From Kofleriaceae bacterium (GTDB lineage Bacteria > Myxococcota_A > Polyangia > Haliangiales > Haliangiaceae), in NCBI GenBank assembly GCA_013368795.1, contig JABFXX010000184.1:1-64000 (forward strand): a stretch of 64,000 nt of DNA, written 5' to 3'. Position 1 is the first letter of the stretch, and each line of letters begins with the position of its first letter. Both the position numbers and the translations under genes were made by a program. Shown here in pieces: positions 10,726-28,278 of this stretch. The notes beneath the pieces were generated by a model. The model did no database searches, was not told where the DNA came from, and worked only from the letters and a program-made list of their open reading frames with translations.

Positions 10726-10784
10726 GACGCACCCGGGCTGCAACGCGCAAGCCACGCGGCACGTGGACTGCACGAACCACCGGC

Positions 10785-11204
10785 ATGCGTAACTTAATTA
10801 TTGCTGCACTGGGGGTGTCGGCTCTTGCGGGCTGTACCACGCCGTCGGGACAGGGCGCTGCGCTCGGCGGCGGCGGTGGCGCAATCATCGGTGGCCTCGC
10901 GGGCGGCGGGACCGGCGCACTGATCGGCGCGGCCGCCGGCGGTCTCTTGGGCTACGGCGCCGGCAGGGTCGTCGAGGAGCAGGATCGCGAACGCGCTGCG
11001 ATCGCGCTCGAGCAGAACCGCCAGTACGAGTGGCAGAACAGCGCCGGCAATCGGTACCGGGTGGTGCCGGGACCGACGCACTACTACTCCGGCCGTGAGT
11101 GTCGCGACTTCCGGATGTATGCGGACATCGAGGGGAGGCCGCAGGAGGTCACGGGAACAGCGTGCCGTCGTCCCGACGGAAGCTGGGAGCAGATTTCGGG
11201 CTGA
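10785..11204 (+). CDS. Glycine-zipper lipoprotein (17 kDa surface-antigen type)
   Basis: A 139-residue lipoprotein. The signal peptide ends in the lipobox LAGC (Cys16). A glycine-zipper membrane segment follows (GGGGGAIIGGLAGGGTGALIG...), then a charged helix and a C-terminal domain reading YEWQNSAGNRYRVVPG...RECRDFRMYADIEG with a final TACRRPDGSW. This is the outline of the rickettsial 17 kDa antigen / SlyB-like family that sits in the outer membrane and binds or stabilises the envelope. It lies divergently from the transporter. Confidence 0.82.
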   Translation: MRNLIIAALGVSALAGCTTPSGQGAALGGGGGAIIGGLAGGGTGALIGAAAGGLLGYGAGRVVEEQDRERAAIALEQNRQYEWQNSAGNRYRVVPGPTHYYSGRECRDFRMYADIEGRPQEVTGTACRRPDGSWEQISG

Positions 11205-11247
11205 CTCGTCGAGCCTTCCGCCTTGCCGGGGTTGCCCTTGCAGTGGC

Positions 11248-11694
11248 ATGAAGCGGCGTATGCGAACGCTCGTGCTGCTCGGTGCTCTGATAGGTAGCCC
11301 CGCGTACGCGGCTCCCGCCGCGAAGGCGAAGCTGGTGTTCGGCACGCCGACGGTGAAGGCCGGGCTCGACGCGAAGGCGGTCGCGACGGTCGTCCAGCGC
11401 TACGGCGCCAAGCTGCTCGCGTGTTACACCGCGGCGCTCGCGAAGACGCCCGAGCTCCAGGGGACCGCGACCGCGACGTTCAGCGTCGGCATCGACGGCA
11501 ATGTCATCGAAGCGGCGGCAAGGGGTCTCAACCACGACGCGCACGCGTGCATCAGCTCGGTGCTGATGAAGCTCGAGTTCGCGAAGCCAAGCGACGGCAA
11601 GCCGGTCGATGTCACGTACCCGATGACGTTCCAGGCCATCGACCGCCCAGCGCCCTCGAACTATCCATTCACGTTCCGCCCAGGATCCGAATAG
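11248..11694 (+). CDS. Exported AgmX/PglI-type C-terminal domain protein
   Basis: A 148-residue protein with a basic N-terminus and a signal peptide ending near AYA-AP. The rest matches the myxobacterial AgmX/PglI C-terminal domain, a TonB-like fold: LLACYTAALAKTPELQGTATATFSVGIDGNV, then HACISSVLMKLEFAKPSDGKPVDVTYPMTF. The two cysteines are conserved in that domain and probably form a disulfide. Unlike AgmX itself it has no long N-terminal region, so it is a stand-alone periplasmic module. The ATG at 11248 replaces the over-long track start. The next gene starts nine bases downstream. Confidence 0.75.
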   Translation: MKRRMRTLVLLGALIGSPAYAAPAAKAKLVFGTPTVKAGLDAKAVATVVQRYGAKLLACYTAALAKTPELQGTATATFSVGIDGNVIEAAARGLNHDAHACISSVLMKLEFAKPSDGKPVDVTYPMTFQAIDRPAPSNYPFTFRPGSE

Positions 11695-11703
11695 GATCGC
11701 CGG

Positions 11704-13020
11704 GTGTCGGCAAGGCTCGCGCTCGTTTGCATCCTCGCGTCGGCGTGCGGCACCGAGCCGCCGCAGCCCGGGACGTGGTACGGCGACGTCGGCGCGATCG
11801 TCCGCACGAAGTGCGCCGGCTGTCATCGCCCCGGCGGCATCGCACCGTTCTCGCTCCACGACTACGCCGATGCGGTCGAGGAGATGCGGCGCATGATCGA
11901 TGCCGTCGACAAGGGCATCATGCCGCCGTTCTCGGCGAACGACACGCCAGACTGCGTGCCTCGCCATCGCTGGCGCGGCGATCCGCGACTGACCGATGCC
12001 GAGAAGCAGACGCTGCGCGACTGGGTCGCCGCCGACGGCCCCGAGGGTCTCGTGCGCGATCTGCCCGACGTACCGTCGACGACGCTCGAAGGTTCGAACG
12101 TCGAGCTCGTTCCCGCGCAGCCGTTCGAGTCGAGCGGCACTCGCGATCAGTTCGTTTGCTTCCTGTTCGATCCGGCGGTCACGCACGAGCAGTGGCTGAC
12201 GGGCTCGCAGGTGTTCCCGACGGCACCGGAGTTTGTCCATCACGTCAACGTCGATCTCGTGCCGCCCGGGGATGCGGAGGCGACGATCGCCGCGCTCGGT
12301 GGTATCGGCGTGCCGAAGACCCAGTGCGACAACCCGCCCGGCTTGCCGATCCAGAGCTGGCTGCCCGGCAATCCCGCGCTCGTGCTGCCGAAGGACGTCG
12401 GGATTCCCATCGAGCCGGGCACGCTCGTCGCGATCCAGGTCCACTATCATCCGGCGGGCGGCATCGGGACCGACGCGACGTCCGTGTCGCTCCGCCTGTC
12501 CGACGACAAGCCGGCCTGGAACTACGAGCTCGGCGTGTACGGCAACGCGGCAGGGCCGCCGAACCTGCAGCCGGGTCCCGGCGATCCGGCGAGCGGGCCT
12601 GCGTTCATCATTCCGGCAAACTCGCCCGATCACGTCGAGACGATGATCATGACGCACCGGGCGGACCTGTCGCGCGAGCTCCGCGTCCTCAGCGTCACGC
12701 CACACATGCACCTGCTCGGCACGTACCAGCGCGCCAGCGTGTTGCACGCGAACGGCGATGACGAGTGCCTGATCGACAGCGGATGGAACTTCGACTGGCA
12801 GCGCTCGTACACGTACGACGCTGACCTCGACGAGCTGCCGCTGTTCGACGCGAGCAGCAAGGTGACCGTGACGTGCCGGTGGGATAACTCGTTCAGCAAT
12901 CCGAACCTGCCGCGCCTGCTCTACGACAAGGGGCTCGCCGCGCCGTACGACGTCCGGCTCGGGCTCACGACCGCCGACGAGATGTGCCTCGCCGACTTCG
13001 GCGTCGTCACACCGAACTGA
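11704..13020 (+). CDS. Copper type II monooxygenase-like lipoprotein with N-terminal cytochrome-c motif
   Basis: A 438-residue protein starting at GTG, with a short signal peptide and a lipobox (LASAC). Residues about 35-45 hold CAGCHRPGG, a CxxCH heme-attachment site, followed by a cytochrome-c-like region. The C-terminal part resembles peptidylglycine alpha-hydroxylating/copper type II ascorbate-dependent monooxygenases: FVHHVNVDLVPPGD, AIQVHYHPAGG and VTPHMHLLG supply candidate copper ligands. Such fused proteins occur in Myxococcota and Planctomycetes; substrates are unknown. Likely outer-membrane anchored or periplasmic. It overlaps the convergent acyl-CoA dehydrogenase by 14 bases. Confidence 0.8.
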   Translation: MSARLALVCILASACGTEPPQPGTWYGDVGAIVRTKCAGCHRPGGIAPFSLHDYADAVEEMRRMIDAVDKGIMPPFSANDTPDCVPRHRWRGDPRLTDAEKQTLRDWVAADGPEGLVRDLPDVPSTTLEGSNVELVPAQPFESSGTRDQFVCFLFDPAVTHEQWLTGSQVFPTAPEFVHHVNVDLVPPGDAEATIAALGGIGVPKTQCDNPPGLPIQSWLPGNPALVLPKDVGIPIEPGTLVAIQVHYHPAGGIGTDATSVSLRLSDDKPAWNYELGVYGNAAGPPNLQPGPGDPASGPAFIIPANSPDHVETMIMTHRADLSRELRVLSVTPHMHLLGTYQRASVLHANGDDECLIDSGWNFDWQRSYTYDADLDELPLFDASSKVTVTCRWDNSFSNPNLPRLLYDKGLAAPYDVRLGLTTADEMCLADFGVVTPN

Positions 13021-14155
13021 GGATCTCGCGCGCGATCACGAGGCGCTGGATCTCGCTCGTGCCCTCGTAGATCCGCGTGACGCGCGCATCGCGGTAGAGC
13101 CGCTCGATCGGAAACTCGCGCGAATAGCCGTAGCCGCCGTGGAGCTGCAACATGCGATCGACGACGCGGCCGCATGCCTCGGTCGCGAACAGCTTGGCCA
13201 TGCTGCACTCGGCGCCGGCGCGCTCACCGGCATCGAGCGCGCGTGCCGCTCGCAGCATCAGCAGCCACGCCGCGTCGAGCTCGGTGCGCGAGTCGGCGAG
13301 CACGAACTGCGTGTTCTGCATCGCCGACAGCGGCTTGCCGAACACCTCGCGCTCTGCCGCGTACGCGACGCCTGCGGCGTAGGCAGCCTCCGCGAGCCCG
13401 AGGCTCAGCGCGGCGATGCCAACGCGGCCGCCGCCGAGTGCCGATAGCGCGACGCCATAGCCGCCGCCGCGGCGTCCGACGAGGTTGGTCGCCGGCACGC
13501 GGCAGCCGTCGAACGCGAGCGTCGCGGTGCCCGAGCTGCGCTGGCCCATCTTGTCTTCCTCGCGGCCGACGGTGAGGCCGGGCGTGCCTCGCTCGACGAG
13601 GAAGCAGCTGATGCCGTCCTTGCCGTCACCGTCGCTGCGCGCGAACACGAGGTGAAACCCGGCGTGCGTCGCGCTCGTGATCCACACCTTCTCGCCGTCG
13701 AGCACCCAGGCGTCGCCATCTCGCGTCGCACGCGTGCGGATCGCGGCGGCGTCCGAGCCTCCTCGCGCCTCGGTCAGCGCGAAGCTACCCGGCCCGAGCT
13801 CGCCGCGTGCGTAGCGAGCGAGGAGCGTGCGCTGGTCGCCGGTCGCGTGCTCGGCGAGGATCTTCGCGGTGAGGTTACTCGACGCGAGCACGACCGCGGT
13901 CGACGCGCATGCCTTCGCGATCGCCTGCATCGCGAGCGCGTAGCCGACGTTCGAAAGCCCGGCGCCGCCATCCTGCGCTGGGACCTTCATCGCGAGAAAG
14001 CCGAGCTTCGCCAGCTCCGCGAGGATCTCCGCCGGGAACCGTCCCGTGCGATCGCGCTCGGCCGCGCCCGGAGCCACGACACGCGTCGCGAGGTCCGCAG
14101 CGACCTCGGCGATCTGCGTCTCCTCGTCGGTGAGCTCGTAACCGAAGTGCTTCAT
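13007..14155 (-). CDS. Acyl-CoA dehydrogenase
   Basis: A 382-residue FAD-dependent acyl-CoA dehydrogenase of the short/branched-chain size class, catalysing alpha-beta desaturation of acyl-CoA with electron transfer flavoprotein as acceptor. ALTEARGGSDAAAIRTRA is the first family signature, WITSATHAGFHLVFAR the FAD-binding region, and QLHGGYGYSREFPIERLYRDARVTRIYEGTSEIQ carries the C-terminal signature with the catalytic glutamate in YEGTSE. The ATG at 14155 begins at the usual N-terminal helix; the track start adds shadow sequence. It is divergent from a MarR-type regulator with a perfect palindrome in between. Confidence 0.93.
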   Translation of the reverse strand: MKHFGYELTDEETQIAEVAADLATRVVAPGAAERDRTGRFPAEILAELAKLGFLAMKVPAQDGGAGLSNVGYALAMQAIAKACASTAVVLASSNLTAKILAEHATGDQRTLLARYARGELGPGSFALTEARGGSDAAAIRTRATRDGDAWVLDGEKVWITSATHAGFHLVFARSDGDGKDGISCFLVERGTPGLTVGREEDKMGQRSSGTATLAFDGCRVPATNLVGRRGGGYGVALSALGGGRVGIAALSLGLAEAAYAAGVAYAAEREVFGKPLSAMQNTQFVLADSRTELDAAWLLMLRAARALDAGERAGAECSMAKLFATEACGRVVDRMLQLHGGYGYSREFPIERLYRDARVTRIYEGTSEIQRLVIAREILSSV

Positions 14156-14208
14156 GGCTCGGTTATGGCGGAGCCGGCACGGCGGTGGAAGCAGGGCAGG
14201 CGATGAGG

Positions 14209-14227
14209 TTGACAGGTAACCTGTCAA
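14209..14227. promoter_or_regulatory. Perfect 9+1+9 palindrome, candidate MarR operator
   Basis: TTGACAGGTAACCTGTCAA is a perfect inverted repeat with 9-bp arms and one central base. It lies between the divergent acyl-CoA dehydrogenase (start 14155) and the MarR-like gene (start 14245), 17 bases before the regulator's ATG. There is no T-run, so it is not a terminator. Size and position fit an autoregulatory operator of a dimeric winged-helix regulator. This is inference; binding is untested. Confidence 0.65.
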
Positions 14228-14244
14228 GAGTCAGCCTTTCGCCG

Positions 14245-14751
14245 ATGCGACGAACACGCGCGCCTCGCCGGCGACGCAAGACGCCCTCGTCACGAGAGCC
14301 GGTGCAGGAGGTCGTCGACGAGACGATCGCGCTGTATCAGTGGCTCGCCTGGGTCGCCGACGACCTCTACGGTCCCGACGCACGTGGTGCCGCGCGGCGG
14401 TGGACGCTACGTCGACTCGCGCGCGAGGGCGCGCAGACGGTGCCGGCGCTTGCGAAGGGCCGCGCGGTGCGGCGGCAGACGCTGCAGCCGATCGTCGACG
14501 CGCTCGCCGCCGAACGGCTCGTGACGCTGGAGCCGAACGCCGCGCACGCTCGCTCGCCGCTCGTCACGATCACCGGGCGCGGGCTCGCGATGGTCGACCG
14601 CTTCGATCGCGTCGACCGCGCGGTACTCGGCGCGGTGTCGCGCGGCATCGGCGCGCGGGAGCTTGCGGTCACGGCGACGACGTTACGCGCGCTCAGGACC
14701 GCCTTCGAGCTGACCGCGCGGTGGCGGCCAGCGGCGCTCGCTGCCGTCTAG
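14245..14751 (+). CDS. MarR-like winged-helix transcriptional regulator
   Basis: A 168-residue DNA-binding protein with an Arg-rich N-terminal tail. The middle reads RWTLRRLAREGAQTVPALAKGRAVRRQTLQPIVDALAAERLV, a helix-turn-helix, and SPLVTITGRGLAMVDRF is the wing followed by the dimer helix; this is MarR-family architecture. I choose ATG 14245, downstream of the palindrome, because an upstream start would place the operator inside the coding region. It probably controls itself and the divergent acyl-CoA dehydrogenase. Its TAG stop shares CTAG with the stop of the convergent hydrolase. Confidence 0.75.
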   Translation: MRRTRAPRRRRKTPSSREPVQEVVDETIALYQWLAWVADDLYGPDARGAARRWTLRRLAREGAQTVPALAKGRAVRRQTLQPIVDALAAERLVTLEPNAAHARSPLVTITGRGLAMVDRFDRVDRAVLGAVSRGIGARELAVTATTLRALRTAFELTARWRPAALAAV

Positions 14752-15656
14752 AACTCGTCCTGGAGCCAGCGCTCGACGGTCCGCACCGCGGCCTGCTTGC
14801 TCGTCGGATGCGAGAAGCCCTTGTGGCCGGAGTGCTTCAGCAGCTCGAACGAGACGTCGGGCGAGCTCGAGAACAGCGCCGAATCATCCTGCGGCACGAA
14901 CAGGTGGTCGTGGTCCGCCTGCATGAGGAGGACAGGAACGTCGATCTGCGAGCGGAACGGCGCGCTCTCGTTGCCGAGTGCCGACAGGATCTCGGCGCGG
15001 GGGACGAGGTTGCGCGTCGCGTTGTCGAGCGCGATCACCCAGCTGTTCGCCCACGGCTCGGCGTAGAAGAAGTCGGTGCGGAAGTCGACGCCGAAGTCGA
15101 AGTACGGACCCTGTGCGAGCCACGCGCCGACGTCGACCTCGAACAGCGCGGGCTGGAGCTGTGCCGTGTTGAAGCTCACGACGACGCCGTCGACGTCGTG
15201 ATACGTGCCGGCCTCGGTCATCACGATGTCGGCGCCGACCGACGGACCGAGCAGCACGATCTCGTCGGGGGTGAAGCCAAGCGCGCCATCACGGACCTGC
15301 GTGACAACATCGTGGAGCTGTGCCGCCTGTGCCGCGAACGTCAGCGTGTCGCCGTTGGGATGGCTCGACGCTCCGTAGCCAACGCGGTCGACCGTGAGGA
15401 CGCCAAAACCTTTCTGCGCGAGATCGCGTGCGGCGGTATAGCCCGGCGCGAAGTCAAAGACAGTGTGACTGTCCGATGCACCGTGAACCATGATGACGAG
15501 CGGCTTGTGCCGACTCTCGCCGTAGACGTAACCAGCCATCGTGTTGCCGTCGCTCAGCTGGAACGAGACCGTCCGCGGCGTCGAACGTTCCGCGCGTGCT
15601 CCGTCGACAACTCCGAACATCAAGACGCAGACGCAAAACAACATTCGCTTGGTCAT
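14748..15656 (-). CDS. Secreted alpha/beta hydrolase
   Basis: A 302-residue protein with a signal peptide (hydrophobic core CVCVLMFGVV, cleavage near ARA). The mature part is an alpha/beta hydrolase: MVHGASDSHTVF gives the oxyanion region, LLGPSVGAD the nucleophile elbow (GxSxG with Pro before Ser), MQADHDHLFVP the acid strand, and HSGHKGF the histidine. Likely periplasmic or extracellular esterase or peptidase-like enzyme; the substrate is unknown. A purine-rich TAGGGGGAG precedes the ATG at 15656. The track ORF extends it wrongly to 16187. Confidence 0.82.
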   Translation of the reverse strand: MTKRMLFCVCVLMFGVVDGARAERSTPRTVSFQLSDGNTMAGYVYGESRHKPLVIMVHGASDSHTVFDFAPGYTAARDLAQKGFGVLTVDRVGYGASSHPNGDTLTFAAQAAQLHDVVTQVRDGALGFTPDEIVLLGPSVGADIVMTEAGTYHDVDGVVVSFNTAQLQPALFEVDVGAWLAQGPYFDFGVDFRTDFFYAEPWANSWVIALDNATRNLVPRAEILSALGNESAPFRSQIDVPVLLMQADHDHLFVPQDDSALFSSSPDVSFELLKHSGHKGFSHPTSKQAAVRTVERWLQDEF

Positions 15657-19069: not shown

Positions 19070-19813
19070 ATGATCGGGGGTCGGATGAAGCAGCGGGATC
19101 ATGTAGCGGCGACGGTGACGCGCAATACGAAGCGCGAGAGCGGCACGTTCGCGATCCGCGACCTCGCGCCGGGCGGCGCGCGGCTCGTCGGTCAGCTCGA
19201 CGTGTTCGAGGGCGAGCGCGTGCAGCTTCAGATCGAGCTCGACGAGCCGCTGCAGCTCGTCGCCGACGTCGTCACCGTCGATCGCCAGCGCAAGGTCGTC
19301 GAGGTCGCGTTCCGCGGCGTCACCGGCGAGGCGCTCGCCAAGATCGAGCGGTCGATCGCCGACATGATCGACCGCGTCCGTGCATCGGCGCCGCCGACCG
19401 TGCTGATCGCCCATCCCGTCGTCGACATCTCGAGCGCGCTCGAGCGAGACCTCGCGCGCGTCGGTGTCGCCGCTCGCGTGTGCGCGACGCTCGCCGAGGT
19501 TGGCGACCTGCTCGCGGATCGCACGACAAGGTTCGTCGGCGTCGTGCTCGCCGGCTCGTTCGGCGAGGATCTCGGGCCGGCGCTCCAGCACCTCGAGGAG
19601 ACGCGCAGCGAGTTGCGCCGCGTGATCCTGTTCGGCGATCAGATCGAGAAGGTCGAGCACCCCGCCGCACGCCGCGTCGATGCGGTGCTGCGCACGCCGT
19701 GGCGATTCAAGGGCCTCGCGCGTGCGCTCGATGTGCCGTCGGAGAGCGTCGTCACGACCTACGACCAGCTCGTCGCGCTCCAGATGCCGATCGGCACCAA
19801 GCCTCGAGGATGA
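19070..19813 (+). CDS. PilZ-like domain protein with degenerate receiver-like C-terminus
   Basis: A 247-residue protein. Residues about 5-90 resemble a PilZ domain (KQRDHVAATVTRNTKRESG, then IRDLAPGGARL, in the place of the DxSxxG motif), suggesting c-di-GMP-related or structural function; the RxxxR motif is weak. From about residue 100 (TVLIAHPVVDISSALERDLARVGVAA...) it looks like a CheY-like fold that lacks the phosphorylatable Asp. The stop overlaps the MazF start as ATGA, so the two are translationally coupled. The ATG at 19070 gives MIGGRM; the ATG at 19085 is possible. Confidence 0.6.
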   Translation: MIGGRMKQRDHVAATVTRNTKRESGTFAIRDLAPGGARLVGQLDVFEGERVQLQIELDEPLQLVADVVTVDRQRKVVEVAFRGVTGEALAKIERSIADMIDRVRASAPPTVLIAHPVVDISSALERDLARVGVAARVCATLAEVGDLLADRTTRFVGVVLAGSFGEDLGPALQHLEETRSELRRVILFGDQIEKVEHPAARRVDAVLRTPWRFKGLARALDVPSESVVTTYDQLVALQMPIGTKPRG

Positions 19814-20166
19814 CCGTGCGGATCCATCGCGGCGACATCTACTGGATCGCGCTCGACGAGTCGCGAGGGACGCCGGGGCTCGCGCACCCTCATGTTGTCG
19901 TCCAGGACGACGTGTTCAATCAGTCGAGAATCGCGACGGTCGTCGTGTGCGCGCTGACGACGAACCTCGATCGCGCGACCGAGCCCGGCAACGTCCTCCT
20001 CGACCCGGGCGAGGGCGACCTCCCACGGCAGAGCGTCGTCGTCGTGTCGCAGATCGCGTCCGTCGAGAAGGCGCGTCTGGGCGAGCGAATCGGCGTGCTG
20101 TCGGAGGCGCGCATCGAGCAGATCCTCGACGGCCTGCGCTTCCAGCAGCGCTCGTTCGGTCGGTAG
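19810..20166 (+). CDS. mazF: PemK/MazF-family endoribonuclease toxin
   Basis: A 118-residue MazF-like protein. RGDIYWIALDES at the start, HPHVVVQDDVFN, TVVVCALTTN, GNVLLDPGEGDLPRQSVVVVSQ and a final helix are the standard MazF layout; the Arg and Ser/Gln around LPRQSVVVVSQ correspond to the active region of this mRNA interferase family. It begins within the stop of the PilZ-like gene. No small MazE/AbrB-type antitoxin is seen immediately upstream or downstream. It may therefore be a solitary toxin, be controlled by an unlinked antitoxin, or be coupled to the PilZ-like protein. Confidence 0.85.
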   Translation: MTVRIHRGDIYWIALDESRGTPGLAHPHVVVQDDVFNQSRIATVVVCALTTNLDRATEPGNVLLDPGEGDLPRQSVVVVSQIASVEKARLGERIGVLSEARIEQILDGLRFQQRSFGR

Positions 20167-20167
20167 C

Positions 20168-21046
20168 TCAACGCGTCGCCGCGGCAATCACCGCCGCGAT
20201 GTACGCAGGATCCGTCTCTGGAAGAAACAGCAGCGTCCCGCCATGCTGGGTCGTCGTCGTGCGCGTCAGCGTGGCCTCGTGGGACGGCGTCGGATACAGC
20301 TTCGCGCACAGCGCGTGATCGAGCTCGTCGATATCGACGCCACCCGGGATGGGCTCGCCATCGACCGTGAGCTCGCCGGAGATCTGGTAGCACATGATCG
20401 AGTTGGGGTCGGGCGTCGTGGCGCGGAGGGACGACTCCTCGATCGGCGTCAGCACCTGCGCTCGGACCTCCTCCTTCGTCCAGCCCTGCGTCGCCATGAA
20501 GAACGAGATCGCCTTCTCTTCGTCGATCTTCGCGACGAGCGCGCGACGCATGTGCTCGTGAATGAAGCCGAGCGTGTGGCCGGCTTCGTGGCGCACGACC
20601 CGATGAAACTCGGAGTCGGGTGTGTTCATCGTGAACGAGTCGAGATTCATCGTCGGCTCGTTCGATGGGATCAAGCCGATGTCCGTGCCGACGTACGACC
20701 AGTATCCGTCACCCTTCGTGAACGCGATCCGGACCTGTCCCTTCTGCTGGGTCTCGACGAACGACACGTTCGCATCGCGATTCCACGCGTTCATGTGCGA
20801 CAGGATGCGCGTGCGAAGCGCGGCGCTCGTCGTGTCCATGAAGCTGACGGTGAGCTTCACGCCTTGCGCGCCCCAGTACTTCGTCGTCATCGCCGCGATG
20901 AACTCCTTGGTCGGCTTGAAGCCGGACAGCTGCGAGAGCGCGAGCGGCGGGGCGTTTGCGGGGTTCTGCTCCGAGGCGTGACGAGCAGCCTCCTCGAGCC
21001 GGGTATGGGGTAGCGACTTGGGGGTACAAGCGATCAGCTTCTGCAC
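20168..21046 (-). CDS. Astacin-like (M12A) zinc metallopeptidase
   Basis: A 292-residue metzincin. HEAGHTLGFIHEH is the astacin zinc-binding motif HExxHxxGFxHE, and SIMCYQI supplies the Met-turn. The upstream part (WGAQGVKLTVSFMDTTSAALRTRILSHMNAWNRDANVSFVETQQKGQVRI) is the usual N-terminal lobe. There is no Sec signal peptide, although astacins normally act outside the cell; the start may be mis-set or export may be non-classical. The C-terminus is short. One base separates its stop from that of mazF. Confidence 0.85.
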   Translation of the reverse strand: MQKLIACTPKSLPHTRLEEAARHASEQNPANAPPLALSQLSGFKPTKEFIAAMTTKYWGAQGVKLTVSFMDTTSAALRTRILSHMNAWNRDANVSFVETQQKGQVRIAFTKGDGYWSYVGTDIGLIPSNEPTMNLDSFTMNTPDSEFHRVVRHEAGHTLGFIHEHMRRALVAKIDEEKAISFFMATQGWTKEEVRAQVLTPIEESSLRATTPDPNSIMCYQISGELTVDGEPIPGGVDIDELDHALCAKLYPTPSHEATLTRTTTTQHGGTLLFLPETDPAYIAAVIAAATR

Positions 21047-21188
21047 GGTGGCCTCCTTCGTGGGGCCTCCTGCAAGAACCAGTGCCGGTGAAGTGGGCTT
21101 GCGCCGGGACGACGGTGTCGGCAGGAACTGACCGGCGTCGAACGAGTGTCGCGTCGAGCTGACACCGAGCTACTATGGGGGCGGGGTG

Positions 21189-24100
21189 ATGTTGGCAGAG
21201 GAGACTTCGGAGATTCACCCGAAGCTACGTCTCGATTCGGTGATCGCACGCGGATCGTTCGGGGTGGTGTTCAAGGCGAGACAGGTCGCGGTGGCTCGCG
21301 ACGTCGCGGTCAAGGTGCTGCACACGGGCCTCGGCCTGCAGACGGAGGCCGGGCGGCTCTTTCGCGAGGAGATCCGCGCGATCGGGACGCTCGATCACCG
21401 GAACGTCGTGCGGATCTTCGATGCCGACGAGACGCGCGACGGTCGCCTCTACTTCGTGATGGAGCTACTCGACGGCCCGACGCTCCAGCATGTCGTCGAT
21501 GCTTCACCCATCGCCCCGGCTCGCGCGACCGCGCTCGTCGCGCAGCTCCTCGATGGACTGGCGGCGGTGCACGCGGCCGGTCACATTCACGCCGACGTCA
21601 AGCCGGCGAATGCCGTCATCTGCGGAGCCGGCGACGACGAGCGCGTGGTGCTGATCGACTTCGGGTTATCGCGCGTGCTGCCGATCGATCGACCGGCGGA
21701 GGCAGTCGGCGGAACGCGTGCATACATGGCTCCCGAGCAGCTGCGCGAGTGGAAGGTCGAGGCTGGATCGGACGTGTATTCCGCCGCGCTGATCCTCGTG
21801 AAGCTGCTGACGGGGGGCGAGCGTCCGCCGAATGCGGCGATGCCAGCGCTCGACGGGATCGCTGATCCGATCCTGCGCGTCGCGATCGAGCGTGCGCTCG
21901 CCGAGGATCCGGCACAGCGCCCGAGCGCCTCGGACTTTGCGCGAGCGCTGAGGCGCGAGACCTACGATGCAGCAGGGCCAGCGCCGCAGTCGCCGTTTCG
22001 CGAGCTAACGCCGCTGACCGAGCGCGACCGGCTCCACGGACGCGCGGATGATCTGCATCGCATCGCGCGTCGAATCGAGAGAGCGCGCCCCGTCGTGCTC
22101 ACCGCTCCTTCGGGGACGGGCAAGACGTCGCTCCTCCGTGCGGGACTGATCCCGTATCTCGATGCGAGCGGGCGTCCGTGGGTGTATCTCGCGTGCGAGC
22201 CCGGCGCCGCGACGAGGCTGGCGGCGCTCCTCGAGCCGGAGGCCGCGTCCCTCGAGCACGCACTGCAACAGCGTGCGTCGCGAGGGCAGCCGCTGGTCGT
22301 GATCCTCGATCAGCTCGAGGTCGCACTGGCGAACGGGGAGGCAACCGCGTTGCTCGACACGTTGCTCGCCGCGGACGTGGCGACCGTACTTGGCGTGCGC
22401 GAGGACTTCGTCGCACGCCTGCTCGCCGCATCGCGGTTCCTCGTCGAGGGTGTGCCGCAGGTTCGACTGCCGCCGCTCGATCGCGAGGGCGCACGCCGTG
22501 CGATCGTTTCTCCACTCGCAGAGCGCGGCATCGAGCTCGCCCCGGATCTCCTCGATCTGTTGCTGGACGACCTCACGAACGCCGGGCGCGCGATGGGCCT
22601 CGACGACACGGGCACCGATGCCGCGATCTATCCACCACAACTGCAGCTCTCGGGTGGCGCCCTGTTCGACTCGCTTGCCGCCGACGAACGCATCATCACG
22701 CGCGAGCACTACCATCGCCTCGGCGGCTTTGCTGCGATCGTCGGCGAGCACCTCGAGCGCACACTCGGCGAGCTGGCCAGCGAAGACCGCGAGGTCGCGC
22801 GCGAGCTCTTCCTCGAGCTCGTGACGTCGACCCACACGCGCGCGCTCAGGACCGAGCAGGAGCTCGTCGACGCGGTCGGCGGGCGACATGGCGACGTCGC
22901 GGTACGGCGCGTTCTCGCTCGGCTCGAGGCGCGTCGCCTGATCGCGCGGACGAGCAGCCTCGACGGCATTCCGAGCTGGAGTCTCGTGCACGATACGCTC
23001 GCTCCTCGCATCGAGGCGTGGCTCACCGTCCATGACCTCGATCGGCGTCGCACCGCCGAGCAGCTGCGTTTCCATCTTCGCGTCTCGCAAGCCGACGCTC
23101 CGGCGACGCTATCGGCGCGCCAGCTCGCGACGCTCGCGAAGTTTCCCGGGCTTGTCGAGGAGCTCGAGGTCGAGTGGACTCGTCGAACCGAGGCCGTCTG
23201 GACGCCGCGCTCGCTGGTCGACCGCTCGCGGAGACAGGTCCGTTACCGCCGCGGCGTCATCGGCACGACCGCGGTCGCGATGCTCGCACTGACCGCAGTC
23301 CTCATCGGAACCTGGCTCGCGCAACGCCACAAGGACAATCTCCGGCTCTCGAACATCGGTCGCATCGACCTGAGGATCGAGGCGTTCGACTTGAAGCTCG
23401 ATGCAGCCGGTGCGCTCGTCGACGAGCATGTCGATGCACCGGATCTCAGGTGGGAGCTGTTCGACCCCGCCGCTGACGATCCGGACTCGGCTGGAAGCAA
23501 AACGCCCGCCGATCGCTTCGAGCCCGGAGAGCGCAGGTTCGAGCATGGAACCCTCGTCGAGACCGGCATCGAGGTTCGTGGCGGTGACGCGTTCTTGAAG
23601 GTGTACGGCCGCGTCGGGACCTGTGAACCGTCCGTCATTCCACTGCGCCGGCTCCCTGGCAACGACGAGTACGACAAGCCACGTGAGATTCGGATTCGCG
23701 TTCCCACGTGCAGCGCATCGGCGTTCGATACGGTGCTCGTGCCTGCGGGTCCATTCGTTTTCGGCGGCGTCGGCGATCCTCCGTCGGGGCTCGGTGCCGA
23801 CTACCTGCCGATCGAAGAGGTGGTGAATCTGCAGGCGTTCTCGATCGATCGCACCGAGATCACGAACGCAGCGTTTGCCGTGTTCGCGAAGCAATACGAG
23901 GTGCACGAGGTCGAGGCCGAGGCCTACACGGATGCCTTCGCGATCGCCGGGGGCCAGAACTATCCTCGGAGCGCACTCGACTGGTTCGACGCGCGCGCGT
24001 ATTGCCGATTCCTCGGCAAAGACCTGCCTACGAGTCGCCAGTGGCAGAAGGCACTGCGTGGCGGCCTCGTGCTCCCGTCAGGCGCACCGAACCCGCACCC

Positions 24101-24509
24101 TCGTCGGAACGTTCCATGGGACGACGCCCCACCGACCGCGCCTGATTACGCGGGCATCGTCTCCGCTGCGGTGACGAACGCGCACATGCAGCTCGGCCAG
24201 AACTCCGATCCTCGACATCCGTATCCGGTCGGCTCGCATCCGAAGGACACGAGCGTCTACGGCGTCGTCGATCTTGCGGGCAACGTGCAGGAGTGGACGG
24301 CCGACTTCGAGCAGCGGGACGATGGCAAGTTCGATCGCCGGGCATCGCGGGTGACGCGCGGTGGTAACTGGTTCGACACCACCGCCGAGCTGCTCGATTC
24401 GTATACGGCACTCGAGAACCCGCGCAGCCCGCACACCCGGTTTCAGTTCGTCGGCGCGCGCTGCGCGATGGCGATCAAAGCGGAAGCGGTGCCATCGGCC
24501 GAACGATGA
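21189..24509 (+). CDS. Ser/Thr kinase - STAND NTPase - TM - FGE/sulfatase-modifying-factor-domain receptor
   Basis: A 1106-residue multidomain protein. Residues about 15-265: Hanks-type kinase with RGSFGVVF, DVAVKVL, HADVKPAN (non-RD), DFGLSR and APEQL, so catalysis is possible. About 275-650: STAND-type P-loop module (LHGRADDL, Walker A APSGTGKTSLLRAGL, Walker B VVILDQLEV). About 688-710: one transmembrane helix. About 845-1100: FGE-sulfatase domain with FSIDRTEITNAAF, CRFLGKDLPTSRQWQKAL, LAGNVQEWTADF and VTRGGNW, ending VGARCAM; the active-site cysteine pair of true FGE is absent, so it probably binds ligand. Topology would be kinase and STAND inside, FGE outside. It converges on a sigma-54-controlled operon. 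Confidence 0.88.
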   Translation: MLAEETSEIHPKLRLDSVIARGSFGVVFKARQVAVARDVAVKVLHTGLGLQTEAGRLFREEIRAIGTLDHRNVVRIFDADETRDGRLYFVMELLDGPTLQHVVDASPIAPARATALVAQLLDGLAAVHAAGHIHADVKPANAVICGAGDDERVVLIDFGLSRVLPIDRPAEAVGGTRAYMAPEQLREWKVEAGSDVYSAALILVKLLTGGERPPNAAMPALDGIADPILRVAIERALAEDPAQRPSASDFARALRRETYDAAGPAPQSPFRELTPLTERDRLHGRADDLHRIARRIERARPVVLTAPSGTGKTSLLRAGLIPYLDASGRPWVYLACEPGAATRLAALLEPEAASLEHALQQRASRGQPLVVILDQLEVALANGEATALLDTLLAADVATVLGVREDFVARLLAASRFLVEGVPQVRLPPLDREGARRAIVSPLAERGIELAPDLLDLLLDDLTNAGRAMGLDDTGTDAAIYPPQLQLSGGALFDSLAADERIITREHYHRLGGFAAIVGEHLERTLGELASEDREVARELFLELVTSTHTRALRTEQELVDAVGGRHGDVAVRRVLARLEARRLIARTSSLDGIPSWSLVHDTLAPRIEAWLTVHDLDRRRTAEQLRFHLRVSQADAPATLSARQLATLAKFPGLVEELEVEWTRRTEAVWTPRSLVDRSRRQVRYRRGVIGTTAVAMLALTAVLIGTWLAQRHKDNLRLSNIGRIDLRIEAFDLKLDAAGALVDEHVDAPDLRWELFDPAADDPDSAGSKTPADRFEPGERRFEHGTLVETGIEVRGGDAFLKVYGRVGTCEPSVIPLRRLPGNDEYDKPREIRIRVPTCSASAFDTVLVPAGPFVFGGVGDPPSGLGADYLPIEEVVNLQAFSIDRTEITNAAFAVFAKQYEVHEVEAEAYTDAFAIAGGQNYPRSALDWFDARAYCRFLGKDLPTSRQWQKALRGGLVLPSGAPNPHPRRNVPWDDAPPTAPDYAGIVSAAVTNAHMQLGQNSDPRHPYPVGSHPKDTSVYGVVDLAGNVQEWTADFEQRDDGKFDRRASRVTRGGNWFDTTAELLDSYTALENPRSPHTRFQFVGARCAMAIKAEAVPSAER

Positions 24510-25317
24510 CGCCCCCGGGATGGGACGCCGGATAGATCCGGATCCAACGGCCACCGAACAGCGAGGTGACGCGGTGAACGCGTCCGGTTGCCGCTGGGTA
24601 CAGCAGCTCTCGGTCGGGCAGCTGGAGGAGGCCGGGTTCTTCGCGGACGTCCTGGATGTTGGCGAGGAGCTCGCTCAGCCTCTGCTGACTGTCCGGTACC
24701 TCGCGAAGCAACCACGGTTCTGGACCGAGGTACTTGCTCACGTCGCGCGCCGCGTCGACGGTCGTCTCGGCGACCAGAGATCCGAGATCCACATTCGGGA
24801 CCTGCCGCATGCTGCCGAATGCTGTGTCCCAGTTGACCAGTGCCGATAGTGGCTCCGGGGGCAAGGTCCCGAGCTCGAGCGCGAGCGCGTCATCGAGCAG
24901 ACCGTTCGGCCCGAAATGTCGGGATCCGAGGATCCTGCGAGTTCCGTAGACCTTCGGGTACCCGAGGTCTTTGAGGTGCTGCATCGCTGCGCGGCCTTTC
25001 CCGCGTGCAGTGAAGCAACCCAGGAGTCGAATCGATTTGATCCGACCACCCGCGGTCTGCAGGATTCCGGCGGCCTCGGTCTCGAGTGCGGAGATGAGCC
25101 ACTGCCCGACATGCAGCTCGCCATCGCGAGCGTGAGCGATGAGGTCAACGTGCAGGTCGCCGGTCGTGGCTGCAACAACCTCCCGTACGCCGTCGACCGA
25201 CTCGTTGCCTCGCAGGAGCACGCGAGCGCCACCGACCAGGGACTCTCCGTTGATGTTGTCCTGCGTCTTCTGCAGTGTCGCGTCGCCGTCGATCACGCTG
25301 ATGTTGAGGGGCGCCAC
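24475..25317 (-). CDS. Putative clan-CD (DUF4347/CHAT-like) cysteine peptidase or unknown protein
   Basis: A 280-residue soluble protein from a GTG at 25317 with a good GAGGAG site. The N-terminal half has VDLIAHARDGELHVG (His62) followed 39 residues later by IRLLGCFTARGKGR (Cys101) and YGTRRILGSRHFG. That His...Cys spacing, each after a hydrophobic strand, with HxxDGxLxxG and GCxTAxGxG, resembles DUF4347/CHAT-type clan-CD peptidases. The C-terminal 130 residues are unrecognised. The assignment is inference from pattern only. It is two bases downstream of the preceding unknown gene, in a sigma-54 operon, and overlaps the kinase gene's end by 35 bases. Confidence 0.5.
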   Translation of the reverse strand: MAPLNISVIDGDATLQKTQDNINGESLVGGARVLLRGNESVDGVREVVAATTGDLHVDLIAHARDGELHVGQWLISALETEAAGILQTAGGRIKSIRLLGCFTARGKGRAAMQHLKDLGYPKVYGTRRILGSRHFGPNGLLDDALALELGTLPPEPLSALVNWDTAFGSMRQVPNVDLGSLVAETTVDAARDVSKYLGPEPWLLREVPDSQQRLSELLANIQDVREEPGLLQLPDRELLYPAATGRVHRVTSLFGGRWIRIYPASHPGGVIVRPMAPLPL

Positions 25318-25319
25318 GT

Positions 25320-26096
25320 CTACTCCTCGAACCCAACGGGCAGCTTTGGGCCGCGCGCGCCCACGGTTTTTCCGGTGAGGTCTTTGAACTTCGTGAGTGC
25401 GGTCATGAGCTCGACAAACAAGATCCCCGTCTTACCGGGATTCAGCATGGCCGCGAGCGACTGCGCTGGATCGACGGCCTCCTTCGGTGGATTGTGGTCA
25501 TAGCTCGAATCGGTACGTGCGAACGTCCAGGTGAGAGGGTTGCCCTTGTCGTCCGTTTCATTGTCGAGCTTGACGGTGACGTCGCCGTTCGCGGCGACCG
25601 CGGTCACCGTCGCCACGAACCCGTGGTAGCGAGTCCGCACGTCCATATCGTTGATGTACGTGATCGAGGTGAGCTCCTCGGCCCGGTACTTGTCCCCGGG
25701 CCACTTCGGGAAGTTCGTTGGCAGCAGATTCTTGTGCGTTTCGTGTTCGAGATACACGGCGCCGATGAACGACCCATGTGCGGGTTCCTTCGTTTTTCCT
25801 GCGACCCCGATCGACGTGATCGCGAGCGGGAACTGCAAAGCCATCGGCTCGGTTCCGATATCAGATCCATCGTTCTTGATGCCCCGATCGTCGAGCTCGA
25901 CAGAGTCCCAGTTCGCGAACCCACATTCGGACGGGCACAGCTCCTGTTTGATCGGAAATCGAAGCCCCGGCTTACTGACGAAGTCGATGACATCGTCGTC
26001 CGAGATGATCGCGATTACGTCGAACGTCGAGTTGCTCGTGACCTCGGCGACGACGGCGCCGACACCATGAAAGACCTTGCACTTCGTGACTGCCAT
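25320..26096 (-). CDS. Hypothetical protein, first gene behind a sigma-54 promoter
   Basis: A 258-residue protein without signal peptide, transmembrane segment or recognisable family. It appears beta-rich (VFHGVGAVVAEVTS, YHGFVATVTAVAANGDVTVKLD) with cysteines at 6 and a CPSEC pair near 55. Codon choice is somewhat less GC-biased than in neighbouring housekeeping-like genes. It starts 17 bases or so after the predicted sigma-54 transcription start with a GGGGG ribosome site and is coupled to the putative peptidase gene. It may be that protein's substrate, adaptor or partner; this is a guess from position. Confidence 0.7.
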   Translation of the reverse strand: MAVTKCKVFHGVGAVVAEVTSNSTFDVIAIISDDDVIDFVSKPGLRFPIKQELCPSECGFANWDSVELDDRGIKNDGSDIGTEPMALQFPLAITSIGVAGKTKEPAHGSFIGAVYLEHETHKNLLPTNFPKWPGDKYRAEELTSITYINDMDVRTRYHGFVATVTAVAANGDVTVKLDNETDDKGNPLTWTFARTDSSYDHNPPKEAVDPAQSLAAMLNPGKTGILFVELMTALTKFKDLTGKTVGARGPKLPVGFEE

Positions 26097-26142: not shown

Positions 26143-27663
26143 TCATTCCGGGCGTCGGAGCCCGAACGCGGCGAGCAAGTCGTAGAGATGCTGGCGGCTC
26201 ATGTCGAGCTCTTCCGCCGTCCGCTTGATGTTCCAGGCGTGACGCGCGAGCGCGTCCTCGATGTGTCGCTTCTGGCTGCGCATCGTCATCTCGCGAAACG
26301 TCGGCGGCGCGTCGTCTTCCCGCGGCGCCGACGGAAAGAGGTGGTGCTCGTCGAGCGCCTTCGCACGCTCGAATGCCGCGCGGGCGACGCCGGCTTCGAC
26401 GGCATTTGCGAGCTCGCGTACCTGCCCGGGCCACGGCGCTTCTCGGCACGCCCACAGCGCGCGCCGCGTCGGTCGTACCGCTTCGATCTCGAGGCGCGCG
26501 CACGTCTCGACACAGCAGCGCTCGACGATCGCCGGGATGTCGTCGCGCCGCTCGTCGAGTGACGGCAGGCGGATCGGCAGCACGGCGAGCCGGTAATAGA
26601 GGTCCTCGCGAAACGCGTTCTTCGCGACGAGCGCCTTCAAGTCCTTGTTCGTCGCGCTGATCACGCGGACGTCTGCGGCGACGGGCGAAGACGAGCCGAG
26701 CGGATAGTAGCGACGCTCCTGAAGCAGCTGGAGGAGCTTCGCCTGTGCGGCGAGTGACAGCTCGCCGACCTCGTCGAGGAACAGCGTCCCGCCGCGCGCG
26801 GCCGCGACCTTGCCGGGCATTTTCCGCGTCGCGCCGGTGTACGCGCCGGCCTCGGCGCCGAACAGCTCGCCCTCGAGCAATGCCTCGGGGATCGCGGCGC
26901 AGTTGAGATCGACGAACGGGCCGCTCGCGCGGGCACTGTTCGATGCGATTGCACGCGCGAGCGCCGACTTGCCAGTTCCCGTCGGCCCGGTGAGGAGGAC
27001 CGTGATCGGCAGTGGCGCGACCTGCGCTGCTTCGCGCAGCACCCTCGCGAACGCCGGCGAACGTCCGACGAGGTCATCGCAGCGGAAGTGGCGCCGGATC
27101 TCGACGGTCGCGTCGCCGTCCTGCAAGCCATCGCGCTGGCGCAGCAGGCGATCGGCGACGATCCCGAGCTGCCGCGCGAAGACCTCGACGGCTTCGCGAT
27201 TGCGCGCCGGGAACGCGTCGCCCGCCTGGGTTCCTTGCAGATACACGACGCCAAAGGCTGGCTTGCCGATCGGCGCACATAGCACCGCCTGGATGGCGTT
27301 GCGCAGCACGCTCGGCTGGTCGCGATACTCGGGATCCTCGACGGCAGACGGAGTCGCGATCAGGCGGCCTTCGTCGAGTGCTCGCGCGACGATGCCGCGC
27401 GAGATCGAGGCCCGGATCGCGGCAACATCGTCGTCGGTGCAACCGTGGGCCTTCCAGTAGCGCGGCGGTCCATCGCGGAGATCATCGGGCTCGCGCAGCT
27501 CGAGGTAGACCATCCGCGCACCGCTCGCCGACACGATCGTGGTCAGCGCACTGGCGAGCAGCGGTTCGGGATCCTCGGCCGCGACGAGCTCGAGGAGTCG
27601 AAGATAGAAGTCTCGTTCCGCGGCCGGATCATTCTCCGCCCGCGTCTGGTCCGCACTCGCCAT
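26143..27663 (-). CDS. Sigma-54-dependent transcriptional activator (GAF - AAA+ - Fis HTH)
   Basis: A 506-residue enhancer-binding protein. Residues about 15-180 form a GAF sensor; about 200-440 the AAA+ domain with Walker A TGPTGTGKSALARAI, ELFGAEAGAYTGA (the sigma-54 contact loop, GAYTGA for the usual GAFTGA), Walker B GGTLFLDEVGEL, and FREDLYYRLAVLPIRLPSL; the C-terminal HTH_8 is HIEDALARHAWNIKRTAEELDMSRQHLYDLL. The ATG at 27663 (MASADQT) has a GGGTGG site and is preferred to 27711. It precedes a sigma-54 promoter and two unknown genes and is divergent from an exported-protein pair, so it probably controls both sides in response to a small ligand. Confidence 0.92.
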   Translation of the reverse strand: MASADQTRAENDPAAERDFYLRLLELVAAEDPEPLLASALTTIVSASGARMVYLELREPDDLRDGPPRYWKAHGCTDDDVAAIRASISRGIVARALDEGRLIATPSAVEDPEYRDQPSVLRNAIQAVLCAPIGKPAFGVVYLQGTQAGDAFPARNREAVEVFARQLGIVADRLLRQRDGLQDGDATVEIRRHFRCDDLVGRSPAFARVLREAAQVAPLPITVLLTGPTGTGKSALARAIASNSARASGPFVDLNCAAIPEALLEGELFGAEAGAYTGATRKMPGKVAAARGGTLFLDEVGELSLAAQAKLLQLLQERRYYPLGSSSPVAADVRVISATNKDLKALVAKNAFREDLYYRLAVLPIRLPSLDERRDDIPAIVERCCVETCARLEIEAVRPTRRALWACREAPWPGQVRELANAVEAGVARAAFERAKALDEHHLFPSAPREDDAPPTFREMTMRSQKRHIEDALARHAWNIKRTAEELDMSRQHLYDLLAAFGLRRPE

Positions 27664-27821
27664 TGGTACCACCCAACGCTCATCATCGCTCGATCGTTCG
27701 GCGCCGGGCAATCGCCGCGAACCGTGTCCGCAGTGTCAGCTCGACCCGACATCGGCTCGCAAGCCATCAGCCGCGGATGACATCGCATTTCGTCATCGCG
27801 AGGCTTGCCTGCGACTTTGCG

Positions 27822-27852: not shown

Positions 27853-28278
27853 ATGCCGCTCGCACTTCACACCCCGACCGCCAAGACGGTCGGCCCGCCG
27901 CCGATCCGCGAAACGGATCTAGATCGGATCCTCAAGCTGATCCCGACGGAGATCCTGGCGTTCTACACGGCGGCGGTGCCGATTTCGCCGCAGGTCCCGT
28001 GGAAGCTGTTTCCGTTCGCGCTGTTCGTGACCGGACTCGTGCTCGTCCCGCTCGTCCTCTTTCTCGACGGTCGCAACACCAGCCAACCGGCGTCCCCGGC
28101 GCAGTACGTGGTTCGCATCCTGGCGTTCGCGGCGTGGGCGATGGCCATCTCGTGGCCGTTCTCGGCGTGGTCGAGCGGCGAAGACCTCAACTGGGTCAGG
28201 TCGCTCGCGGTGTTGATCGTTCCCCTGATCGGCGCGCTCGTGTTGCGCGGCGACAAGCTCCCAACCCCGTCCTTTTGA
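27853..28278 (+). CDS. Small integral membrane protein (about three TM segments)
   Basis: A 141-residue protein with a polar N-terminus (about 35 residues) followed by about three hydrophobic helices (WKLFPFALFVTGLVLVPLVLF, VVRILAFAAWAMAISWPFSAW, LAVLIVPLIGALVL). The motif LIPTEILAFYTAAVP before the first helix is distinctive but I cannot name a family. The ATG at 27853 is used rather than the track start. It is followed after 13 bases by the 611-residue exported protein, so the two probably form an operon divergent from the sigma-54 activator. Confidence 0.75.
   Translation: MPLALHTPTAKTVGPPPIRETDLDRILKLIPTEILAFYTAAVPISPQVPWKLFPFALFVTGLVLVPLVLFLDGRNTSQPASPAQYVVRILAFAAWAMAISWPFSAWSSGEDLNWVRSLAVLIVPLIGALVLRGDKLPTPSF

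Follow-up and report, generated by a model that had tools for sequence, protein, structure and literature searches.

The locus raises the question of whether a short open reading frame beside a kinase-STAND gene encodes a caspase-like (clan CD) peptidase, and what such an enzyme would do in this setting. In the window, the 64,000-nucleotide stretch of DNA that was analysed as a whole, the frame runs on the minus strand from 24475 to 25317, starts with GTG, ends with TGA and encodes a DUF4347-type putative cysteine peptidase of 280 aa. The predicted catalytic histidine, His62 (codon 25132–25134, minus strand), is held in VDLIAHARDGELHVG, and the predicted nucleophile, Cys101 (codon 25015–25017, minus strand), in IRLLGCFTARGKGR. 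The ORF translation bears out what the sequence-only reading had claimed for these motifs: the two residues are spaced by 39 residues, and each follows a hydrophobic strand. The catalytic-type core occupies approximately residues 1–150 and is followed by a conserved C-terminal part (P-G-L-L ... G-x-x-x-R). The source genome, which is myxobacterium-like, carries a second copy of the peptidase family on another contig.

Pfam returns DUF4347 (PF14252) as the sole match for the peptidase, covering residues 32–141 with E=5.6e-5 and scoring 23.4 bits where the curated cut-off is 24.6. In the genome search, scored against the same cut-off of 24.6, the match reaches 24.4 bits, or 24.7 with in-frame neighbours. 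Profile-profile comparison (hhalign) yields 80% against ten DUF4347-like proteins and 54% against one canonical DUF4347 sequence, while CHAT gives 10% and four unrelated control families give 0.05–2.6%. In both the DUF4347 and the CHAT profile alignments, His falls on His and Cys on Cys. Because the comparison stands at 80% versus 10%, we assign the protein, from its sequence, as a clan-CD-like putative cysteine peptidase of DUF4347 type, nearer DUF4347 than CHAT. The placing of His and Cys had been likened to DUF4347 and CHAT peptidases together. The DUF4347 half of that proposal stands, but membership in CHAT (PF12770) is rejected: none of 11 members gave a Pfam hit to CHAT, even with the E limit at 1. 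CHAT peptidases (PF12770; for instance PDB 8tl0, Csx29) likewise place His and Cys after hydrophobic strands, and 8tl0 matches the profile of the window family with E=0.0049; however, the core in the window is much shorter.

A separate and widespread DUF4347-like family of approximately 200 aa occurs in the same bacteria, with the pattern WGHGKWG ... WFRTCETFGA ... HTYVIGFHQSGLH (loci L124, L126, L127, L129, L131, L132, L136, L138, L139 and L140). Neither a sigma-54 gene nor a STAND gene adjoins these genes of the WGHG...RTCET type, and the sigma-54/STAND context is therefore specific to the peptidase family of the window. We also notice that two related genomes have very long open frames (L157, L160; 2620 and 1627 codons) within which lies a DUF4347-like His/Cys domain (VVVHGT ... 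IRLLSCDTGAH). One genome of the same genus (G015) has 34 CHAT-domain matches, far above its neighbours.

The order β-α-β-α-β(His)-α-β(Cys)-α-β is the clan CD arrangement of caspases and legumain. Based on the 40-sequence alignment, AlphaFold2 produced a confident model of residues 1–160 (pLDDT 85.9, pTM 0.82), which we used instead of an earlier, weak run on 11 sequences (pLDDT 64, with meaningless Foldseek matches). Its elements follow the order E4-8 H13-21 E26-28 H41-50 E55-60 (His62) H81-87 E93-99 (Cys101) H106-117 E123-126. In this model the core is a caspase-like α/β/α sheet in which His follows one core strand and Cys follows the next, the defining layout of clan CD and the fold that had been anticipated from the letters. 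Foldseek against the PDB ranks clan CD enzymes first: legumain makes up most of the best 22 matches, followed by caspases, CED-3 and GPI transamidase, with weak E-values (best 0.019) and poor rmsd for most legumain alignments.

The only high-probability Foldseek match is chain G of PDB 9qpe, the Hcp3-Tce1 complex (prob 0.98, 107 columns). The same chain, labelled 'DUF4347 domain-containing protein', comes first when the 40-sequence profile is compared with PDB sequences (E=5.7e-5), and a CHAT protein comes second. His62 aligns with chain residue 77 and Cys101 with chain residue 131; taking the chain to start at residue 110, its resolved part, they correspond to His186 and Cys240, the pair proposed to form the catalytic dyad of Tce1 (PMC13323088). 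Tce1 and Tce2 were termed putative cysteine proteases by their authors, and mutation of the predicted site relieved the toxicity of Tce2 to yeast (PMC13323088). Tce1 (PA0256, Pseudomonas aeruginosa) resembles the window protein as a DUF4347 protein with an aligned His/Cys pair. In contrast, Tce1 is carried in Hcp3 as a cargo of type VI secretion, whereas the window peptidase lies in a chromosomal kinase-STAND/sigma-54 cassette, with no secretion genes seen alongside and with a C-terminal part of its own. The DUF4347 literature is sparse: Tce1 is the one member with a solved structure that we found, and the literature searched held no report of direct proteolysis by any DUF4347 protein.

Searching with the single sequence revealed peptidase relatives in 9 of 144 genomes, the window's own genome counted, and profile search revealed them in 14 of the 35 genomes of the order. 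More distant relatives are present in the class and phylum beyond the order, and a contig scan with the close-subset alignment gave five loci, every one on already known contigs. His62 is kept in 22 of 22 close family members and Cys101 in 21 of 22. In the wide alignment (n=40, mean pairwise identity 23%, distant DUF4347-like proteins included), His62 is invariant (40/40) and Cys101 nearly so (39/40), and they are the top two columns for conservation, bearing in mind that the profiles used to gather relatives contain both motifs and favour motif-bearing sequences. The invariance on which the sequence-only reading had staked its proposal was thus found, with a sole loss. The exception at Cys101, L010 (locus L020, 2022–2906), has RLLGSCTA in place of RLLGCxTA. 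It is an orphan that stands alone, with no mid (see below), sigma-54 or STAND neighbours, and since these partner genes are absent beside it, it may be a decaying copy.

The peptidase gene ends a minus-strand run that starts with a sigma-54 activator (26143–27711) and continues with a gene that we call mid (25320–26096). The gaps are 46 and 2 bp, and because the three genes share a strand at these distances, they probably form one operon. The activator has a GAF–AAA+–Fis HTH layout (Pfam Sigma54_activat 2.5e-63, GAF, HTH_8) with intact Walker A and GAYTGA motifs, and an alternative start is possible at 27663. The sigma-54 promoter pattern shows no enrichment (23 matches versus 25.6 expected). 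Convergent with the peptidase gene, tail to tail and with a 35-bp overlap, a plus-strand gene (21186–24509) encodes a 1107-aa protein of Ser/Thr kinase–nSTAND1–TM–FGE/FGS layout (Pfam Pkinase 2.3e-36, nSTAND1 1.5e-42, FGE-sulfatase 9.1e-36). Its kinase motifs VAVK/HADVKPAN/DFG are intact, and one TM helix (approximately residues 688–712), preceded by a basic stretch, lies between ATPase and FGE. The positive-inside rule would place the kinase and ATPase in the cytoplasm and leave the FGE domain outside. The STAND and sigma-54 neighbours named in the sequence-only reading are both real by Pfam; mid, between activator and peptidase, had been omitted.

The mid protein has 258 aa and no TM segment, and across relatives it is the most constant partner of the peptidase. 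It gave no Pfam or NCBIfam match, no PADLOC match and no convincing PDB match. Among the PADLOC defence models the peptidase was not matched either, and the matches of the kinase and AAA+ domains are generic. Nothing observed here ties the cassette to phage or to cell death. The pair resembles bacterial gasdermin-protease operons, in which a partner gene of 230–260 aa lies directly before a caspase-like protease gene, but mid has no sequence match to solved gasdermins or to PADLOC models. A gasdermin identity was rejected for want of sequence support, the mid profile retrieving no gasdermin chain from the PDB even with an E limit of 10.

These genes belong to a recurrent Myxococcota cassette, composed of the sigma-54 activator, mid, the peptidase and the convergent kinase-nSTAND1-TM-FGE protein. 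The full set of four, in the same relative orientation, is found at L012, L013, L015, L019, L054 and L055, with mid and peptidase swapped in L019. At L014, L016, L017 and L018 the FGE protein is cut off by the contig end, and at L060 the contig stops before any sigma-54 gene is visible. Partial sets consist of mid, peptidase and the big protein (L021) or of activator, peptidase and the big protein (L185). At L056, L057 and L190 the set has a shorter middle gene. Elsewhere in the phylum, in a different family (L063, L064, L187, L188, L189), the peptidase neighbours one or two kinase-nSTAND1 genes, most of which include FGE; a beta-rich small protein is present, and a sigma-54 activator is not adjacent. 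For the partners at L063 and L187–L189 and for the shorter middle genes, homology to the window mid protein was not detected, with profile comparison at 7–28%.

Every big protein scanned beside peptidase relatives is a kinase-nSTAND1-FGE protein. Seven genomes, which are related and not independent, were scanned for nSTAND1; 14 of their 16 peptidase-family genes have such a gene no more than 6 kb away, where 0.19 would be expected. A search of 115 genomes located the mid family at 19 places, at 18 of which a peptidase-family gene is adjacent; the remaining one (L184) holds mid, a sigma-54 activator and a STAND gene. The sequence-only reading had spoken of a new small peptidase in a kinase-STAND context. 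That context holds and was understated, because it is a recurrent cassette, and the peptidase stays putative, as judged from sequence.

In the relatives, the kinase-STAND-FGE proteins carry an extra conserved N-terminal region of approximately 235 aa before the kinase (A-L-L-V-A-G ... Y-P-x-D-A-x-L-P-L-x-W-L), which is absent from the window copy (L012 at 10750–14868, L013, L015, L019, L054, L055, L059, L060 and L184). No Pfam model matches it, and the idea that it is another caspase-like domain was rejected, with a profile comparison of 0.16%.

Proteins that join an effector or kinase to an nSTAND1 NTPase and an FGS domain have been described as putative invader-sensing or cell-death systems (Kaur et al., 2021; PMC8195603). 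The big protein in the window shares this layout, with an N-terminal Ser/Thr kinase, nSTAND1 and a C-terminal FGS. Unlike in those systems, however, a TM helix lies between the ATPase and FGS, and no trypsin or TIR partner, nor a reverse transcriptase, was noticed at the locus, which has the DUF4347 peptidase, mid and the sigma-54 activator instead. In the literature searched, outside which lie many subscription journals, we found no description of such partners of a kinase-STAND-FGE protein. The layout is already known, whereas its DUF4347, mid and sigma-54 partners are apparently undescribed.

We consider it fairly likely that this DUF4347-type protein is soluble, resides in the cytoplasm and works as a cysteine peptidase, using a His62-Cys101 dyad set in a clan-CD-like fold, and that it acts as the proteolytic effector of the four-gene signalling cassette in the following way. 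The membrane kinase-STAND protein would sense a signal outside the cytoplasm via its lectin-fold FGE domain. The cytoplasmic nSTAND1 ATPase and Ser/Thr kinase would then assemble, phosphorylate partners, or both. The peptidase, held with the co-encoded mid protein, would be switched on and cut a limited set of cytoplasmic targets, mid being the first candidate for a substrate, an inhibitor or a regulatory subunit. The GAF-sigma-54 activator, once cleaved, phosphorylated or ligand-bound, may set the level of the mid-peptidase pair. The family, the fold, the conservation of the dyad, the co-location of the genes and their domain make-up come from computation, whereas proteolysis, membrane topology, the order of activation, the substrate and any part played in defence, development or regulated cell death belong to the proposal. 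A narrower chain, in which an outside signal read by FGE leads the DUF4347 peptidase to cut mid and so sets off either regulated cell death or a sigma-54 response driven by proteolysis, is speculative and rather unlikely in that exact form.

In myxobacteria, development is regulated by abundant sigma-54 activators and Ser/Thr kinases. This general knowledge lends some weight to the possibility, which we hold to be the lesser one, that the cassette is an ordinary regulatory module for development or predation, made of a kinase, a sigma-54 activator and a processing protease, and does not serve defence or cell death. Such a reading concerns the role and not the enzyme, and it overlaps with that of a cassette effector. 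It sits less well with the description of nSTAND1-FGE proteins with kinase or peptidase partners as conflict systems (PMC8195603), and the patchy spread over the order (the 14 of 35 genomes noted above) suits an accessory system.

On the other hand, mid and the peptidase might form an autonomous pair of enzyme and regulator, toxin-antitoxin-like or enzyme-inhibitor, to which the kinase-STAND and sigma-54 genes were added later as upstream inputs. Some pairs of mid and a short peptidase have none of the other cassette genes as neighbours (L053, L058, L061, and a second pair in each of L012 and L016), which favours this, as does the near-constant adjacency of the two families. We regard it as unlikely, however, for the full cassette houses most of the pairs, and L184, which keeps mid with sigma-54 and STAND genes and lacks the peptidase, is a misfit for a simple toxin-antitoxin system. 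Most doubtful to us is that the caspase-like fold has no proteolytic function and serves as a scaffold, or belongs to some other kind of hydrolase, in line with the view that many bacterial caspase-like domains are inactive. Approximately 70% of the caspase domains in one effector position are reported to be catalytically inactive (PMC7159879), and Tce1 showed no toxicity, having no effect that could be measured in either E. coli or yeast (PMC13323088). Yet two residues that top the conservation at so low a mean identity are what a catalytic pair would give, and the dyad is lost only in the orphan copy. The reading that we prefer is still that of a proteolytic effector within the cassette.

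The association ties a DUF4347 branch to a recurrent, receptor-like kinase-STAND cassette, and thereby names partners that can be tested, predicts a dyad and puts forward a candidate substrate. It points to a module for signalling or self-killing that is apparently undescribed. Should the proposed mechanism hold, the cassette would represent a sigma-54-wired, membrane-sensing branch of caspase-like signalling in multicellular bacteria, and FGE-triggered cleavage of mid, if true, would give a DUF4347 peptidase a first defined role inside the cell, not as a secreted protein.

Around the cassette, we notice a small and probably membrane protein (27853–28278), which is divergent from the sigma-54 activator and could be a fifth cassette gene. 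Look-alikes occur at L013 (6856–7278), divergent from the activator, and near the activator in L056. Meanwhile, on the other side, an astacin/matrixin-like zinc metallopeptidase (20168–21046; Pfam Astacin 7e-10) is divergent from the kinase-STAND gene, and next to it lies a frame (19810–20166) that reads as a look-alike of a PemK/MazF-type toxin gene.
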